Assembly: GCA_037951105.1 (NCBI GenBank)
Contig: JBAMJV010004356.1
Coordinates: forward strand, 131,001-195,000
Direction: 5' to 3'
DNA: 64,000 bases
From: Echinarachnius parma
Lineage: Eukaryota > Echinodermata > Echinoidea > Clypeasteroida > Echinarachniidae
Below, piece after piece: positions 11,267 through 53,843 of this stretch. Numbering within the stretch: the first letter of the stretch is position 1; every line of letters begins with the position of its first letter. A program made the position numbers and the translations under genes. The notes below the pieces were generated by a model. The model was not told the DNA's origin and searched no databases. It was given only the letters and a program-made list of their open reading frames with translations.

Positions 11267-11996
11267 TGTCAACATGGGTAATATTTTGGAATTGTGAGTG
11301 TGTGTATGTGTGCATATGGTAAAGGTAGCGCGGTTGGATTGCTCCACAGGGAGTTGACAATAATTGTGGGTGTGTATCCGATGGTCGAGGTAATAATAAG
11401 ACAACTCCTTGATTAGCATCGTTGTATCGCAATATCATATAAAATACAAATATAGCATGCACCGAAATGACTTATAAATACGCTTTTTCTCTTAGGGCCA
11501 GTAACCAATAGAATGTTGTGAGTTCGGATTGTAATTTGGGACAAAAATATCCGAGAGCAAAAAACTCTATCACTTCAATTAGCGTATTTATATATATATT
11601 TGTTTTAATCACCATTATATCAATCTTTTTGCATTTTAAGAATAGCATGAGCATTTCTGATAAAAAGTATCATTTTCCATGGGGAATCGAACCATTTTGA
11701 ACAGTTAAGATGGAAGAGATCTTCTTGGCGACATTCCAAGAAAACAAAACATCATAAAAGAGAATACTTAATGCATCATCATTGGATGCGGGGTCGATGC
11801 GAAAGTAAGCCACTCGTATACCTTCGAGAAAGATGAACAATATCTATTTACATCGAAATCCACTACTAAAACAATACATTAAACAAATACATCAAACAAA
11901 TAATCTAAATATAACTGGCCTTTTCCCATGGGTGGCACAGAAAGTATGGACCTTAAGATGAAGACGATTTGCTCTGGGACACGGGAAGAATATAGC
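11267..11996. other. no gene seen
   Basis: No gene or repeat could be recognised. The small frames at 11472-11700 lie on opposite strands of the same AT-rich sequence and lack motifs. Confidence 0.5.
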
Positions 11997-12381
11997 TTAA
12001 AGGGATCTAGTAACTTTGTTGACATGTGCAAAAAGTGATGAATGGTTGATGCAATGTATATGTTGTTATCTCATATGTCCACAGGGTATTGTGTGAAAAT
12101 TTCAAGTCAAATGGACATTGTATGTCCAAGTAATGAGCGAAAATGCAAAGTGATATTCAGTAACTAACTGCACTCACTTTGTACACGGACGAAAAACTCG
12201 CCCGGAGTTTTTCTTATCTGAATACTTCAATCATACATATCTTTGTAACGAAAGGGAAATTTGAAAAACCGAAACATGTCCCATGATTTTATTGTTAATA
12301 CGAATACAACAAGGTATAAGGGAACCGCTAGAATTAAAATTTTATTTTGAGGATTTGGACAATGTTACTAAGTCCCTTTAA
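11997..12381 (+). mobile_element. family C MITE, copy 1 (reference orientation)
   Basis: A full-length copy of 385 bp, from TTAAAGGGATCTAGTAACT to TACTAAGTCCCTTTAA, with TTAA at both edges. Internal landmarks are GTTGACATGTGCAAAAAGTG, CTCATATGTCCACAGGG, AATGCAAAGTGATATTCA, TTTGTACACGG and GAGGATTTGGACAATGTTAC. Near the centre, GAAAAACTC...GGAGTTTTTCTTATC forms a hairpin. The outermost bases are inverted repeats, but the subterminal parts differ. Other copies are at 24475, 27510, 41143, 41957, 47006, 48365, 49006, 52276, 55277, 57671 and 60167. Confidence 0.9.
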
Positions 12382-13169: not shown

Positions 13170-13536
13170 GATACATTTCTGGTCAACATTAATTTTAGTA
13201 ACTAAAACTATTTAAGACTAATAGTAAAAGTTCAACAATGCTTGAAAGGTAGAAAGATATTTTAAGTTAGAAAAAAAAGTAAGTCAGCCGCCAAACAGGG
13301 TTCCCTCAAGCCACGGGAAAGTTAAAACCATTATTAAAAAGTAACTGTTGTGCATGTAATGTTTGGTTAAAATTATGATTTAATAGAGAGGTCGTCAAAA
13401 ACAGTTTAAAAGTCACTTCGGTAAATGTTAAACAATAATGTAGGCTTTAAATGTTGCTTGTAAGTATCGGTCTCCATGGTGGTGTATATAATACGTGTGG
13501 CTTGCGGTTGCACCATGTGAGATGGGTGGATTGGTG

Positions 13537-13862
13537 AGTCCTGAAAAGGACTATGGTAGTCCTAGAAAGGACTGTTGGTAGTCCTAGAAAGGACTGTTGG
13601 TGTAGTCCTGAAAATGACTGTTGGTATTCTTTCTAGGAGAGTCCTAAAAAGAACTGGTAGTAGTCCTAGAAAGGACTGTTAGTAGTCCTAGAAAGGACTG
13701 TTGGTAGTCCTAGCAAGGACTGTTGGGATAGTCCTGAAAAGGACTGTTGGTATTCTTTCTAGGAGAGTCCTAAAAAGAACTGTTAGTAGTCCTAGAAAGG
13801 ACTGTTAGTAGTCCTAGAAAGGACTGTTGGTAGTCCTAGAAAGGACTGTTGGGGACTCCTGA
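13537..13862 (+). repeat. 22-bp minisatellite, left arm
   Basis: About 13 units based on AGTCCTAGAAAGGACTGT followed by TGGT. The unit is itself nearly palindromic (AGTCCTxxxAGGACT). A higher-order pattern is present: a variant unit followed by ATTCTTTCTAGGAG occurs twice, about 124 bp apart. Some units carry GAAAAGG or AAAAAGAAC variants. Confidence 0.92.
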
Positions 13863-14260
13863 CCACGATGGATATACATAGTGTCAAACCTGTCTATAGC
13901 AGCCAACCTGTCTATAGTGGCCATAAAATAAATCTTCTGTAGAGGAAAATAATGTTAGTGAACCTGTATGTAGTGGTTACCTGCCTGTAGTGGCCAAGTT
14001 GACTGTTTCCTTAGATGGTCAATGTACGCAGTTTACATATAATTGATTTCATGACAAATGTTTAAGTAATCTTATTATAATGTAGCAAATAATCAAATAT
14101 TTGATAATATTTACAATCCATAATATCTCATTTAGTCCATTTTGAAATAATTTGTTGTTCTATTCGAAACGTCGAGCCCCTCCTACCACACTCCTGACGA
14201 CGGATAGTCAACCTATTCGAAACGTCGAGCCCCTCCTACCATCCACTCTCTCCTCGCAAT

Positions 14261-14580
14261 ACCAACAGTCCTTTGCAGGACTATCCCAACAGTCCTTTCT
14301 AGGACTACCAACAGTCCTTTCTAGGACTACCAACTGTCCTTTTTAGGACTCTCCTAGAAAGAATACCAGCAGTCCTTTTCAGGACTATCCCAACAGTCCT
14401 TTCTAGGACTACCAACAGTCCTTTCTAGGACTACCAACAGTCCTTTCTAGGAGTACCAACAGTTCTTTTTAGGACTCTCCTAGAAAGAATACCAACAGTC
14501 CTTTTCAGGACTACACCAACAGTCCTTTCTAGGACTACCAACAGTCCTTTCTAGGACTACCATAGTCCTTTTCAGGACTC
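14261..14580 (-). repeat. 22-bp minisatellite, right arm
   Basis: The inverse of the array at 13537-13862, with units ACAGTCCTTTCTAGGACTAC and CAACAGTCCTTTTCAGGACT. The order of variants mirrors the left arm, with small differences, so the arms arose by inverted duplication of a whole array and were then homogenised or only slightly diverged. Confidence 0.92.
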
Positions 14581-14857
14581 ACCAATCCACCCATCTCACA
14601 TGGTGAAACCGCAAACCACACGTATTAATGTAGGCTTTATAAAATATTTTCTTAATGTTTCGGACCAACGTGTTTTCTAATCGGATATATCTATGGATAT
14701 GTTAGCTGTTTCTGAACCAATTTTTATCAAACAAATTTTACTTTGTCTTTAAATCATGTGCTTATTCAAATAGTACTTTGTCTTAACCTTGCAAACAAAT
14801 TTGTTTTGTAAGCGCCCTCTAAATCTACCGTTTCGACCTAGCTATACCTACCGGAAA

Positions 14858-40931: not shown

Positions 40932-41844
40932 TTAAAGGGGTAGTTCAGTTTTGGTATAGAGGGCGCTTCAAGAGACAATTTTGATGTGAGTTAATGAAAA
41001 CCTGAGTGTCAAATTTGAAAGAGCATACAATTTTAAAGACAGAATAAATTGTATTAGATCAAAATCGGTTCAGAAACGGCTGAAGTATCAATAAATATAT
41101 CCGATTGGAATAAACCTGGGGCCCCAGCTTTATTCGATAATTTTAAAGGGACTTAGTAACATTGTCCAAATCCTCAAAATAAAATTGTAATTCTAGCGGT
41201 TCCCTCATACCTTGTTGTATTCGTATTAACAATAAAATCATGGGACAGGTTTCGGTTTTTCAAATTTCCCTTTCGTTACAAAGATATGTACGATCGAAGT
41301 ATTCAGATAAGAAAAAACTCCCCCGGAGTTTTTCTTATCGTGTACAAAGTGAGTGCAGTGAGTTAGTGAATATCACTTTGCATTTTCGCTCATTACTTGG
41401 CCATGCAATGTCCATTTGACTTGAAATGTTCACACAATACCCTGTGGACATATGAGATAACAACAATATACATTGCATCAACCATTCATCACGTTTTGCA
41501 CATGTCAACAAAGTTACTAGATTCCTTTAAGAAAACAAAATACATTCTTACACTAAAAGAGGTTTAAGATAGTGGTTGATGATTTCTCTATTTAATCATT
41601 ATTTCAACAAAACATAAAATGCGCATTTTTTTATTTTAAAAATGGTCTAAGCCAATACATTTTTAGAGAGCATCCTCTTGCGTTTTAACAGCTCTTTTTG
41701 AATGATAACAGGCTTTTTACTTAGTCGTTTGTAATTGTGTTTACCTTTCGAGCATGATTGAGTTATAACTATTAGTATGTAATGTTATGGTGCAGGTTTT
41801 GGTTACTAAAATTAAGTTTAACCAAAACTGTACTATCCCTTTAA
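40932..41844 (-). mobile_element. family A MITE, copy 8, interrupted by family C
   Basis: TTAAAGGGGTAGTTCAGTTT (left) to CTGTACTATCCCTTTAA (right). The A sequence breaks at ATTCGATAATT/TTAA (41146) and resumes after 41530. Removing the insert restores a copy of about 525 bp. Confidence 0.93.
41143..41530 (-). mobile_element. family C MITE nested in family A
   Basis: Full-length reverse C copy, TTAAAGGGACTTAGTAACAT to TACTAGATTCCTTTAA, with TTAA at both junctions. It is nearly identical to the reverse copy at 52276-52662, so both are young. It gives direct order: A inserted first, C later. Confidence 0.95.
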
Positions 41845-48930: not shown

Positions 48931-49022
48931 TGCCCGTACGGCGTACGGGCACAAGATCCCTTTCAACGGGCACTAGATCCCTTTCAATGGGCGTACGGCG
49001 TACGTCCATTGAAAGGGATCTA
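48931..49022. repeat. stacked palindromes containing family C ends
   Basis: GTGCCCGTAC/GTACGGGCAC (48931-48953, 3-nt loop) is followed by two AGATCCCTTTCAA(C/T)GGGC strings and a 50-bp palindrome, 48973-49022. In the latter, AGATCCCTTTCAATGG pairs with CCATTGAAAGGGATCT across CGTACGGCGTACG. The AGATCCCTTT strings are reverse family C termini, so several C ends are stacked head to head here. Confidence 0.75.
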
Positions 49023-50550
49023 AACCCCTCAAAAAAAGTTCGGAAACTCAAGTTTGATCGATCATATCTCTCATATTTTTTAATTAGCATATTCGAAATT
49101 GGTGTCACAATAAAGCCTCATTATATACCTTTCAAACGGTGCATTATGTGTAGTGATTATGCAATTGGGGCGATTGCAGTAGCCCAGAGAATAGGGGGAG
49201 GCAGGAAGTGAAATGTCGCAAAATGGCTCAATGCATTTAATTTACGAGTGCATGACTGTGCTGACCATTTTTTTAAAAGTTCACTTTCTATTGAATACTG
49301 CCACCCTTTCCATTCATCAAAATCATTGGAATTTGATACCATTTTAATGGAAATGATCTCTTAATTACAATGGCATATTAATCGTAAGGATTATGCAAAT
49401 GGGGTGTGTGAAGCGAACAGGAATATGGAGATGGGTCGAGTGTGAAATCAAACAAAAAGATATGGAGTTGACACAAAATCAGAGGGTTGCATTTTTTTCG
49501 AGCTTTTGGGAGGATTTTTTAGCATTTCAAATAAAATATTCATGATTCAAATTGTTATCAACCGAAAGCCCAACAACTCTTCTGTATGAAAATGTAAAAT
49601 TTATAATGATTTTAGTAAAGGGCGGCTGCAGGGAGATGAATGTGGGGGAGCCTCAAAAGTGACCCATTTCAAAACGCTCTGATTTCAAGGCACAACTGAG
49701 TCACTATTCATGCGTTTTCAATTGAATTCTTCTCATTCATGGCCAACTCATTCAAGTCGCATTACATCCTCCACACAATGGTAAAAGACACCGACAACAA
49801 ATCAGAGCGTTTTGAAATGGGTCACTTTTGAGGCTTCCCCATATTCATCTCCCTGCAGCCGCCCTTTACAAAAATCATTATACATTTCACATTTTCATAC
49901 AGAAGAGTTGTTGGGCTTTCCGTTGATATCAATTTGAATCATGAATATTTCATTTGAAATGCTAAAAAATCCTCCCAAAAGCTCGAAAAAAATGCAACGC
50001 TCTGATTTTTTGTCAACTCCATATTTTTTGTCTGATTTCACACTCAACTCATATCCATATTCCGGTTTGCTGCGCACAACCCATTTGTCTAATCATTACG
50101 ATCAATATGCCATCGTAATGAAAAGATAATTTCCATTAAAATGGTATAAAAATCCAATGATTTTGATGAATGGAAAGGGTGGCAGTATTCAATAGAAAGT
50201 GAACTTTCAAAAAACTGGTCAGCACAGTCATGCACTCGTAAATTAAATGCATTGAGCCATTTTGCGACATTTCACTTCCTGCCTCCCGGCTTGGTACGAA
50301 CAGTCACGTCACGTTCACGTTCACGTCACGTGAAGGTTCTGTACCTTTTGTGAAACAGGTCACCCAAATCTACGAAGTGTTGGGTTACGTGACCCAACAG
50401 TTTGTAGATATACTATATGCAATTCATGAAAGCTCACGTAAATTGGCGCTTGCGTAAAACAAATTAATGTAAATTGTCGTTGAGAAGAGACTAATTCTCG
50501 GTAAATTTAATCGTGAACGAACCCGTCCTACCTATACTGTAAATACCAAT

Positions 50551-50800
50551 TATAGGCGTACACAGGCCTGGGGGCAGGGGGATGGACACCCCCTACCCCC
50601 ATCCCCACCCCCTTACATAATTCAAGAAATGTCTTGGTCTCGGTCTCGAAATTTGTGACCGGTCCTGGTCTCGTCCTCGGCTGCGGTCATTTTCTACGGA
50701 CACCCCCTACCCACACTCCCCCCGCTTACTTCAATTTGTCTGACGAAATATCCCCCCCCCCCTACATCCACCCCTTGAAAAAATCCTGGGTACGCCACTG
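50551..50800. mobile_element. degraded hAT-like MITE
   Basis: The right end CCTGGGTACGCCACTG matches the common CAGTGGCGTACCCAGG terminus. The left end, TATAGGCGTACACAGGC, is decayed. The interior has C-rich runs and a TCTTGGTCTCGGTCTCG repeat. No target duplication seen. Confidence 0.55.
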
Positions 50801-51046
50801 CCTACAAGTAGCTAGTTCGAATGTCAAATACATTAATTGATTGATTTAATATCGATTGGTTGGTGTGATTGTTTCATTATAATGATTGACTGATTAATTG
50901 ATTGTTTATTAGCTTAAATGACTGATTTATAGATTGACTCGATTCAATAACCATAAATAAACACTATTAATCAAATCATTGTTTTATTACTTTTAAACTC
51001 ATTGATCACTGCAGTCACTCACTCACTCACTCACTCACTTTCACAG

Positions 51047-51193
51047 GCATGCACATACAACACCGTTAAGGGCCAGTACGCTCAGACGTCGAGCACGGGA
51101 ACTTCAGGCGTATGCGAACTGAATTGTCCGCTGCGTGTAGCAATTCAGCTGGAAATCAACATTTGCCAAAATCCACGCACGACACGTCTTTAG
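51047..51193 (+). other. candidate captured terminal exon
   Basis: (ACTC)n and CTTTCACAG form a plausible splice acceptor. The following GC-richer frame reads ACTYNTVKGQYAQT, then SGVCELNCPLRVAIQLEI, and ends ICQNPRTTRL before TAG. Four cysteines in 45 residues would fit an extracellular domain fragment. It lies inside the 9-bp-TSD element, which would make it a gene fragment carried by a transposon. I do not recognise the family, and it may be chance. Confidence 0.25.
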
Positions 51194-52275
51194 AAATACT
51201 CCAATAACAAGACAAATAATGCAAGTGGTATGGTTGTACATTACCTAAATGACAGAACTGCATATTATCGTCTCAGATTACTCTGAATTATGCACGTACA
51301 TATTATAAACATAATGAGTGAAAAGATTTGATAAGGGGGTATCGGCATTTTCGTCGACATTTTAAAATCTCTTTGTGCGTGTATGTCTAGTCTTAGTAAC
51401 AAGCGTTTGCAATTTTAAAAATCTTGATTAAACGCTCACGTCACGATTTGGTTAACGCGACACTTCGAGTTTTACCGGCATGGAAAACGACAAATTGTTG
51501 GGTCACTTTACCCTACACTTCGTAGATTTGGGTGACCTGTTTCACAAAAGGTACAGAACCGTTCACGTGACGTGAACGTGAACGTGACGTGACTGTTCGT
51601 ACCAAGCCCTGCCTCCCCCTATTCTCTGGGCTACTGCAATCGCCCCAATTGCATAATCACTACACATAATGCACCGTTTGAAAGGTATATAATGAGGCTT
51701 TATTGTGACACCAATTTCGAATATGCTAATTAAAAAATATGAGAGATATGATCGATCAAACTTGAGTTTCCGAACTTTTTTTGAGGGGTTTAGTAACTTT
51801 GTTGACAAGTGCAAAAAGTGATGAGTGATATTTATATTGGTGTGATCTGATATGTCCTCAAAGTACTGTGTGAACATTTCACGTTCTTGGATGATTTTGG
51901 GGCCGAGAAATCAGCAAAAACGAGTGATATTCATTAACTTATTGCACTTACTTTGAACACGGCTTAAATACATGTGTACCTATACGCATGCTGCCTTACA
52001 TAGTCTTATATAACTCTCGATGAAAGAACTAGTAGAAATTACACTCCGAATATAAATTATATGAAGTCCTCTACTTTTCATATAAATTGTAGTTTCCGTA
52101 TAAATAATAATATTTAAGATATACTCTAGTATACCGATTGTTTCTTCTCTTTCACATGCACACAATAGTTGGGTCCTTATTTTTCCAAACCTGGTATTTG
52201 GCTTTAAGCTGACAAAGAGAGTTATCAGTCAAACTTGAAAAGAAAACCAGCCATTATGCAACACCGTGTGAATGG

Positions 52276-52662
52276 TTAAAGGGACTTAGTAACATTGTCC
52301 AAATCCTCAAAATAAAATTGTAATTCTAGCGGTTCCCTCATACCTTGTTGTATTCGTATTACCAATAAAATCATGGGACAGGTTTCGGTTTTTCAAATTT
52401 CCCTTTCGTTACAAAGATATGTACGATCGAAGTATTCAGATAAGAAAAACTCCGGTGGAGTTTTTCTTACCGTGTACAAAGTGAGTGCAGTGAGTTAGTG
52501 ACTATCACTTTGCATTTTCGCTCATTACTTGGCCATGCAATGTCCATGTGACTTGAAATTTTCACACAATACCCTGTGGACATATGAGATAACAACAATA
52601 TGCATTGCATCAACCATTCATCACTTTTTGCACATGTCAACAAAGTTACTAGATCCCTTTAA
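52276..52662 (-). mobile_element. family C MITE, copy 9 (full length)
   Basis: TTAAAGGGACTTAGTAACAT to TACTAGATCCCTTTAA with intact TTAA at both sides. Its central hairpin GAAAAACTCCG/CGGAGTTTTTC equivalent is preserved as GAAAAACTCCGGTGGAGTTT. Confidence 0.95.
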
Positions 52663-53843
52663 GGTGCCGGGTATACTTTTTTTGCAGGGAAGCTTGAAGT
52701 TGCATCGGCATCAACCCTGATTTAAATTATCTATTGCGGATTTGTCCGGAATAGGCGGGTGAAATGTGGTAAACCGCTTCCAGTCCGAAATCGATGGCTT
52801 TATTTAGCTGAAAGCTGTACTATTCCTGACACGTAGCCTGCTTCGGACGTGAACTAGATAGCAAAACTAAACAAAGCAGGTTTTTCTCTTAAAGTGATGC
52901 CTGTAAAGTGTCTAAATCCACGAAAAATACTTGGAGCTTCCTCGTTTCTTTTCTGCTGTGTTGTTTAGCTTGTTCTGCTGTGTTGTTTAGTAAGAGAAGA
53001 ATAAAATACGGTTAGATGTTTTCAAATGTCCCTTTGGTATGAAGATAATTATCATTGAAAATCATTATTTCAATACCGTTGCCCAACGGTATTGAATAGT
53101 CGCAGCTAATTGCGTCCGCATTGCAGCATGCGTGGGAACATACCGGAGAGTGAACTTTGAACCCAGCGAGCGTGAATTCCATGAATTCTGTACTACGTGT
53201 GTAAACATACAGGGGTGCAAATATCTCAAACGGCTAATTATTTCTATGACAATGTATGGAAGACTATCAGTATTCGGTGATAAAATATGAACTCAATATT
53301 CGTTTTTTTCACTAGGTAAACAGTGTTTGTTTTCTTTCAAACTTTCACAAATCTTTCAATTGTATTTTACAATGATATTGATATAGGATTGAAGTCTCAA
53401 ATGTCATTTTGTGCAATATCTGACACTTTACCTGAATCACTTTAATCCATGCATGGTCTACAAAAAACCGATAACCCATGTATCTGTTTCTATGGAAATC
53501 GCAACATTTCGTATCAAACAGGTATGATTTGTTTGAATAATATGTAGATCTAGTACGGTAGTCCAATGCCTAAAATTATGGAATACAATGGCAGCAATGA
53601 CAACTTATCCAAAGTGTTGCCCATGCTATGTTAGGTAATGCATCGCGTGTATGTATAGCTTCTGGTCTGTCTGTGTGCCCTGTTCAGATGTGCGTGTAAC
53701 TCTCTTGATCAACCCACACAAATGTCTTATGCACCTTCACAAATCTCTGGGGACCGCAAAATATCGTATGATGTGCTTTCGTGGTCGCATGTTGGTTGTA
53801 GGTTTAAACTCTTGTTTTGAGTCTAGTCTGCCATCCCTCCCCC
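52663..53843. other. no gene seen; small repeats
   Basis: TTCTGCTGTGTTGTTTAG occurs twice (52950 and 52974). A perfect 13-bp hairpin, TTCAATACCGTTG/CAACGGTATTGAA (53069-53096, 2-nt loop), is the only other structure. Frames here lack motifs. Confidence 0.6.

Follow-up and report, generated by a model that had tools for sequence, protein, structure and literature searches.

Serial nesting of three DNA transposons at a locus of Echinarachnius parma and a recurrent target site in a MITE tip

Introduction

Does a stack of nested transposons record separate insertions that can be placed in order, or is it one composite repeat? The question is raised by positions 49006 to 51965 of a 64,000-nucleotide stretch of Echinarachnius parma DNA (contig JBAMJV010004356.1, positions 131,001 to 195,000; hereafter the window). 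An earlier note, made from the letters of the window alone, had described this locus as a stack of four layers that dates four events relative to one another. The window is part of a 1.2-Gb genome in 14,790 contigs, and each layer was searched separately genome-wide. We find that three transposons, here called C, B and D, are nested one in another and that the stack peels exactly.

Results

Peeling of the stack restores the interrupted elements

Element B is a palindromic (foldback) element at 49023..51790; without D it measures 1438 bp. It consists of a left arm (49023-49685), a loop (49686-49798) and a right arm split by D (49799-50287 plus 51618-51790). As the earlier note had proposed, B splits a copy of family C at TA: the dinucleotide stands on both sides of B, at 49021..49022 and 51791-51792, where C copies have a single TA. 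Removal of B together with one TA gives an unbroken alignment to C copies through AAAGGGATC-TA-GTAACTTTG, and the stretch restored in this way is a C tip together with the ~190 bp that begin this copy of the family. The right arm of B is itself interrupted by D, a non-autonomous element with terminal inverted repeats (TIRs), 1321 bp long (50288..51608), and the perfect 9-bp duplication claimed for it is there: CTGCCTCCC lies at 50279..50287 and again at 51609-51617, and the left arm of B has one copy. Once D and one 9-mer are deleted, the right arm aligns to the left arm over 666 columns, the first 248 bp of the two arms being identical. Separate genome searches found B, C and D each alone elsewhere in the genome. 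A search of the assembly, in which the left flank is unique, found no allele without B or D.

The host copy of C was located by alignment across the peeled joint and by a tip scan. Its 5' tip, TTGAAAGGGATC with the target TA, lies at 49009..49022 on the forward strand, and the sequence upstream of 49009 is not C. The rest of the same copy, starting with TA GTAACTTTG, follows on the forward strand at 51791..51969 and breaks off near C position 200. The C layer is thus a 3'-truncated copy, made of a 14-bp left piece and a right piece that extends to near 51969. On the left, the window offers 14 bp of C only, with one change in the TTAA, and this support is weakened by similar AGATCCCTTTCAA tips close by at 48951-48987. 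Several C-tip-like AGATCCCTTTCAA pieces occur at 48951-49022, in both orientations, around GGCGTACGGCGTACG; the 49-bp palindrome that they form around GGCGTACGGCGTACG ends exactly at the left TA of B.

Family C comprises MITEs of about 386 bp with tips TTAAAGGGATC-TA-GTAAC. It is a high-copy family (40 scored of 1789 candidates), and within the window 10 other matches of at least 115 bp to one C copy were found. Eight C copies were fetched, with flanks common to L011 and L012, and 7 of the eight carry TTAA at each end. C may be a TTAA-type MITE of the piggyBac/Kolobok-like kind. A complete inverted C copy, 95-97% identical to the C copies at 11996-12381 and 41142-41531, lies at 52276-52663, some 300 bp beyond the right end of the stack. 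Elsewhere in the window, a large inverted repeat occupies 13489-14627; its palindromic units, AGTCCTAGAAAGGACT, follow one another in tandem at a spacing of 22 bp.

D belongs to a family of its own and entered B at this locus

The TIRs of D, about 118 bp long (50288-50405 and 51490-51608), are 96% identical. Among 40 scored of 2413 candidates, at least 35 were other full-length copies, with 94-99% identity, and the same ends delimit all 35. Their target duplications are exact 9-mers in 24 copies and exact 8-mers in 6, carry one mismatch in 2 and were not recognised in 3; shared flanks were seen only for L023/L024 (both flanks) and L030/L041 (one flank). The 26-mer of the D tip occurs 1507 times in the genome (reversed control, 0). 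With the window's copy included, 36 D copies lie 0.2-1.9% from their consensus, the window copy at 0.76%. D is thus a young, independent family.

Among the loci fetched, the association of D with B was specific to the window. None of the 39 fetched D loci (all 35 full-length and four partial) had a B arm in its flanks (up to 500 bp), and D was absent from the 29 other B loci fetched. The 27-mer spanning the B/D junction, with up to two mismatches allowed, occurs once in the genome. This single occurrence indicates that D inserted into this B copy, at this locus, and rules out one composite repeat for B and D.

A D tip pair 7.6 kb wide, L086, was considered as a candidate autonomous D. It turned out to be a D copy with a 6.3-kb nested insert, whose sole stop-to-stop frame of at least 100 aa has 116 aa. 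In this 7671-bp locus D is interrupted at about position 421 but still lies between intact copies of its 9-bp duplication. Neither B nor D could be tied to an autonomous partner or a transposase.

The earlier note had counted a hAT-like MITE inside D as a fourth layer. An inner GC-rich piece with weak hAT-like ends is present at about 50551..50800; every other full-length D copy examined (35 of 35) contains it, which makes it a constant component of the family. Of 1500 candidate matches to it, 40 were scored, the window's among them, and every one of the 40 extends into D on both sides; free-standing copies may sit among the unscored candidates. The piece was therefore acquired by an ancestor of D before D amplified and is not an event at this locus. 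Three insertions (C, B and D) are recorded here, not four. As for the hAT label, it derives from one 12-bp terminal match, a borderline result (11 of 500 shuffles were as good), and inspection of the sequence revealed no convincing 8-bp duplication around the piece.

B is an abundant element with a TA duplication

The genome search for B scored 39 other places of 1479 candidates, 29 of which were fetched. Both ends could be located in 25 of the 29, and all 25 have TA on both sides. The 20-mer of the B tip has 2639 exact occurrences in the genome (control, 0), and the window copy lies 1.32% from the consensus. The only stop-to-stop frame of at least 120 aa that touches B begins outside B.

Twelve of the 25 B loci (L061-L067, L069, L070, L077, L079 and L085) have near-identical flanks over 1.3-1.5 kb per side where the contig allows, and therefore represent one duplicated insertion; we read this group as B carried along within a bigger unit that was duplicated or is mobile. 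Immediate flanks are also common to L080, L082 and L084.

In the window copy, the outer arms of B (49023-49268 versus 50215-50287 plus 51618-51790) are identical over ~245 bp, unlike those of 25 other copies: with indel bases counted, the outer 246 bp hold 1 arm difference here and 5-41 in the others. Its 14 private changes, relative to 13 other copies, all fall at 341-1130 of 1438. This pattern, noticed after the fact and with a chance of about 2e-4 by simple arithmetic, is suggestive of gene conversion or homogenisation of the outer arms before D entry. The same two right-arm alleles of B are also present in other copies. That the arm identity stops at the D insertion point was ruled out, as it spans 248 columns and continues past the point of D insertion at arm position about 174-183.

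The C/B junction recurs in diverged copies of C

According to the earlier note, layers always found together with the same boundaries would be one composite repeat. The B/D boundary does not recur; the C/B boundary does, but in diverged C copies. A B end followed by TA-GTAAC has 36 exact occurrences in the genome versus 3.65 expected (about 10-fold), and GGGATC-TA followed by a B start has 24 versus 1.71 (about 14-fold). Expectations were derived from TA contexts in 129 kb (the window without B, D flanks and the flanks of 12 independent B copies), and the fold values are rough because this background is only 129 kb, half of it the C-rich window; duplicated loci were screened for in part of the 36 and 24 B ends. 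Pairing of the two exact-junction lists gave ten copies, the window's included, with both junctions exact, versus about 0.7 expected if 1320 copies are assumed.

The left side was opened at sixteen further paired loci. Both junctions are exact at nine of these, while one junction is changed at the remaining seven, and no two of the sixteen have the same outer flank. TTAAAGGGATC is exact in 7 of the 16 and one to three letters off in the others, these C tips being partly given because the loci were picked by junction patterns. At five of the sixteen (C10955, C12895, C1110, C4028 and C1725) the right side was read past the junction, and all five enter C-family sequence; C10955 reaches the other end of C and C12895 is truncated. 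A shorter junction pattern had 8 exact occurrences and 58 with at most one mismatch (control, 1). Ten of its loci were opened: B sits at the joint in seven, including L089, which departs from C shortly past the tip, and the remaining three (L088, L094 and L096) are C-like tips without B. The shorter pattern was dropped as a B-specific marker on account of these three, and the longer patterns were counted instead.

When the window is compared with five other loci, the C parts are 77-82% identical and the B ends 93-96%. Among L087, L092 and the L090 group, the values are 71-79% for C and 86-99% for the B ends, and the C parts of L090, L091 and L093 are 96-97% alike. B has entered C at either tip, GTAACTTTG as well as GTAACATTG. 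Because the C parts are far more diverged than the B ends, we conclude that most of these loci represent repeated independent insertions and not an amplified composite; one composite repeat for C and B is ruled out for pairs with differing C parts.

B favours a target sequence that the C tip provides

A target consensus for B was drawn from 32 insertions, or 64 half-sites, with the window's excluded (12 independent fetched loci and 20 paired tips taken in listing order). Reading outward from TA, the first position is T or G in 59 of 64 half-sites and A in 1, the second is never C (0/64) and the third is T or A in all 64; the background for these positions is about 50%, 83% and 65%. The C tip GGGATC-TA-GTAAC, whose two sides read GAT and GTA, fits this consensus, whereas the sister tip GGGACT-TA-GTAAC reads AGT on one side and does not. 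GGGACT was not found among the 24 exact left B junctions, though the search pattern permitted it; in the 129-kb background, GGGACTTA and GGGATCTA occur 6 versus 14 times in any context. By simple arithmetic, the product of the per-position ratios for the six C-tip bases is about 12. The excess observed, 10- to 14-fold, is of similar size, so that the target sequence is a sufficient explanation, and the best one. C-tip-type TA sites stand at 0.06% in the 129-kb background, and none of the 32 sampled insertions looks like a C tip, so that B lies mostly outside C. The preference of B would be driven by the target sequence and not by recognition of C as an element. It is unlikely that the terminal repeat of C is a docking site for B beyond the local target consensus of B, for example through an interaction between transposases or end-binding proteins of B and C. 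If it were, C would act as a permanent source of composite elements.

Discussion

Could the C/B boundary have been inherited, C with B inside being a composite amplified by the transposase of C, instead of arising by local insertion? The same boundary at 16 other loci with different flanks is what a moving composite would give, and some of L090, L091 and L093, with C parts 96-97% alike, could be copies of one composite. However, C parts only 71-82% identical among the window, L087, L092 and the L090 group, next to B ends 86-99% identical, the insertions in both C tips and the lack of any resemblance to a C tip in the 32 sampled insertions (the window's excluded) make this origin very improbable. 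It is just as hard to credit that B fell into C tips merely because C is abundant. C copies are dense, with 10 other matches of at least 115 bp in the window, and the copy number of B is high, yet the background already contains the C-tip TAs and B ends remain in 10- to 14-fold excess over it; moreover, B has a clear target consensus, and exact left junctions are devoid of GGGACT tips (0/24).

An assembly error in the palindrome or in its D insert can be considered next to negligible. In its favour, the arms show no difference here over their outer 245 bp, which is not so in other copies, and the assembly is in 14,790 contigs. Against it, exact TA and 9-bp duplications and the family structures recur on many other contigs, and the left flank occurs only once in the assembly.

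The exact peeling, the duplications, the independent families, the recurring C/B junction and the target consensus are direct observations on which we base a three-step account, very probably correct as a whole: C, then B at a preferred TA, then D in the right arm of B. An old C MITE is present here as a 3'-truncated copy. B inserted by cut-and-paste at a TA 11 bp inside the C tip, duplicating the TA; its preferred targets read, outward from TA, T/G, A/T/G and T/A, and the C tip offers GATC-TA-GTA. The same base pair of the C terminal repeat has been struck many times independently, probably through this preference. Later, D, probably Mutator-like, entered the right arm of B and duplicated 9 bp. 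Transposases would have been involved for both B and D. The serial order from C to B to D is supported, and the order of divergence agrees with the nesting: C is 77-82% identical to other copies, and B and D lie 1.32% and 0.76% from their consensus, the latter two values being rough and from samples of different sizes.

The locus illustrates serial transposition cleanly, and it carries its own empty sites. A second lesson is that recurring identical junctions need not imply a composite, as a sharp target preference and an abundant older element suffice. The target consensus of B and the hot spot in the C tip are open to a direct genome-wide test.

Comparison with known systems

The four element tip sequences had no match in the papers searched, and titles and abstract openings of the listed papers on nested insertion preference name none of these elements. 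Dating by nesting is established: the younger element interrupts the older, deletion restores the older, and the order of activity follows (TinT, PMC3014933). REANNOTATE (PMC2672092) likewise uses nested transposons for relative dating. TinT counts many pairs genome-wide, whereas here a single locus holds three DNA transposon families.

D is probably most like a Mutator-like element. Its long TIRs, about 118 bp, and its 8-9-bp target duplications, 9 bp in the window, compare with the 8-11 bp given for MULEs (PMC6446971). Unlike MULEs, D had no MULE transposase that we could find inside it or linked to its TIRs; the 24 MULE-domain matches in the genome were counted without regard to D tips. B resembles FB elements in its long inverted arms and Tc1/mariner elements in its TA duplication. 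It differs from both in combining arms of about 660 bp with a 2-bp TA duplication, since FB4 has target duplications of 9-10 bp and Tc1/mariner TIRs are generally <100 bp (PMC8277862).

Nested transposons with a target preference are of a kind already known. MITEs of maize and rice, reportedly described by Jiang and Wessler in 2001, are nested at preferred sites in other elements. Plant LTR retrotransposons are reported to have preferred insertion sites inside other elements (PMC6911290). Our case is like such LTR and MITE nesting in that one family of elements is hit repeatedly, at particular places, by another, and differs from it in that a TA-duplicating foldback DNA element inserts into the terminal repeat of a MITE.
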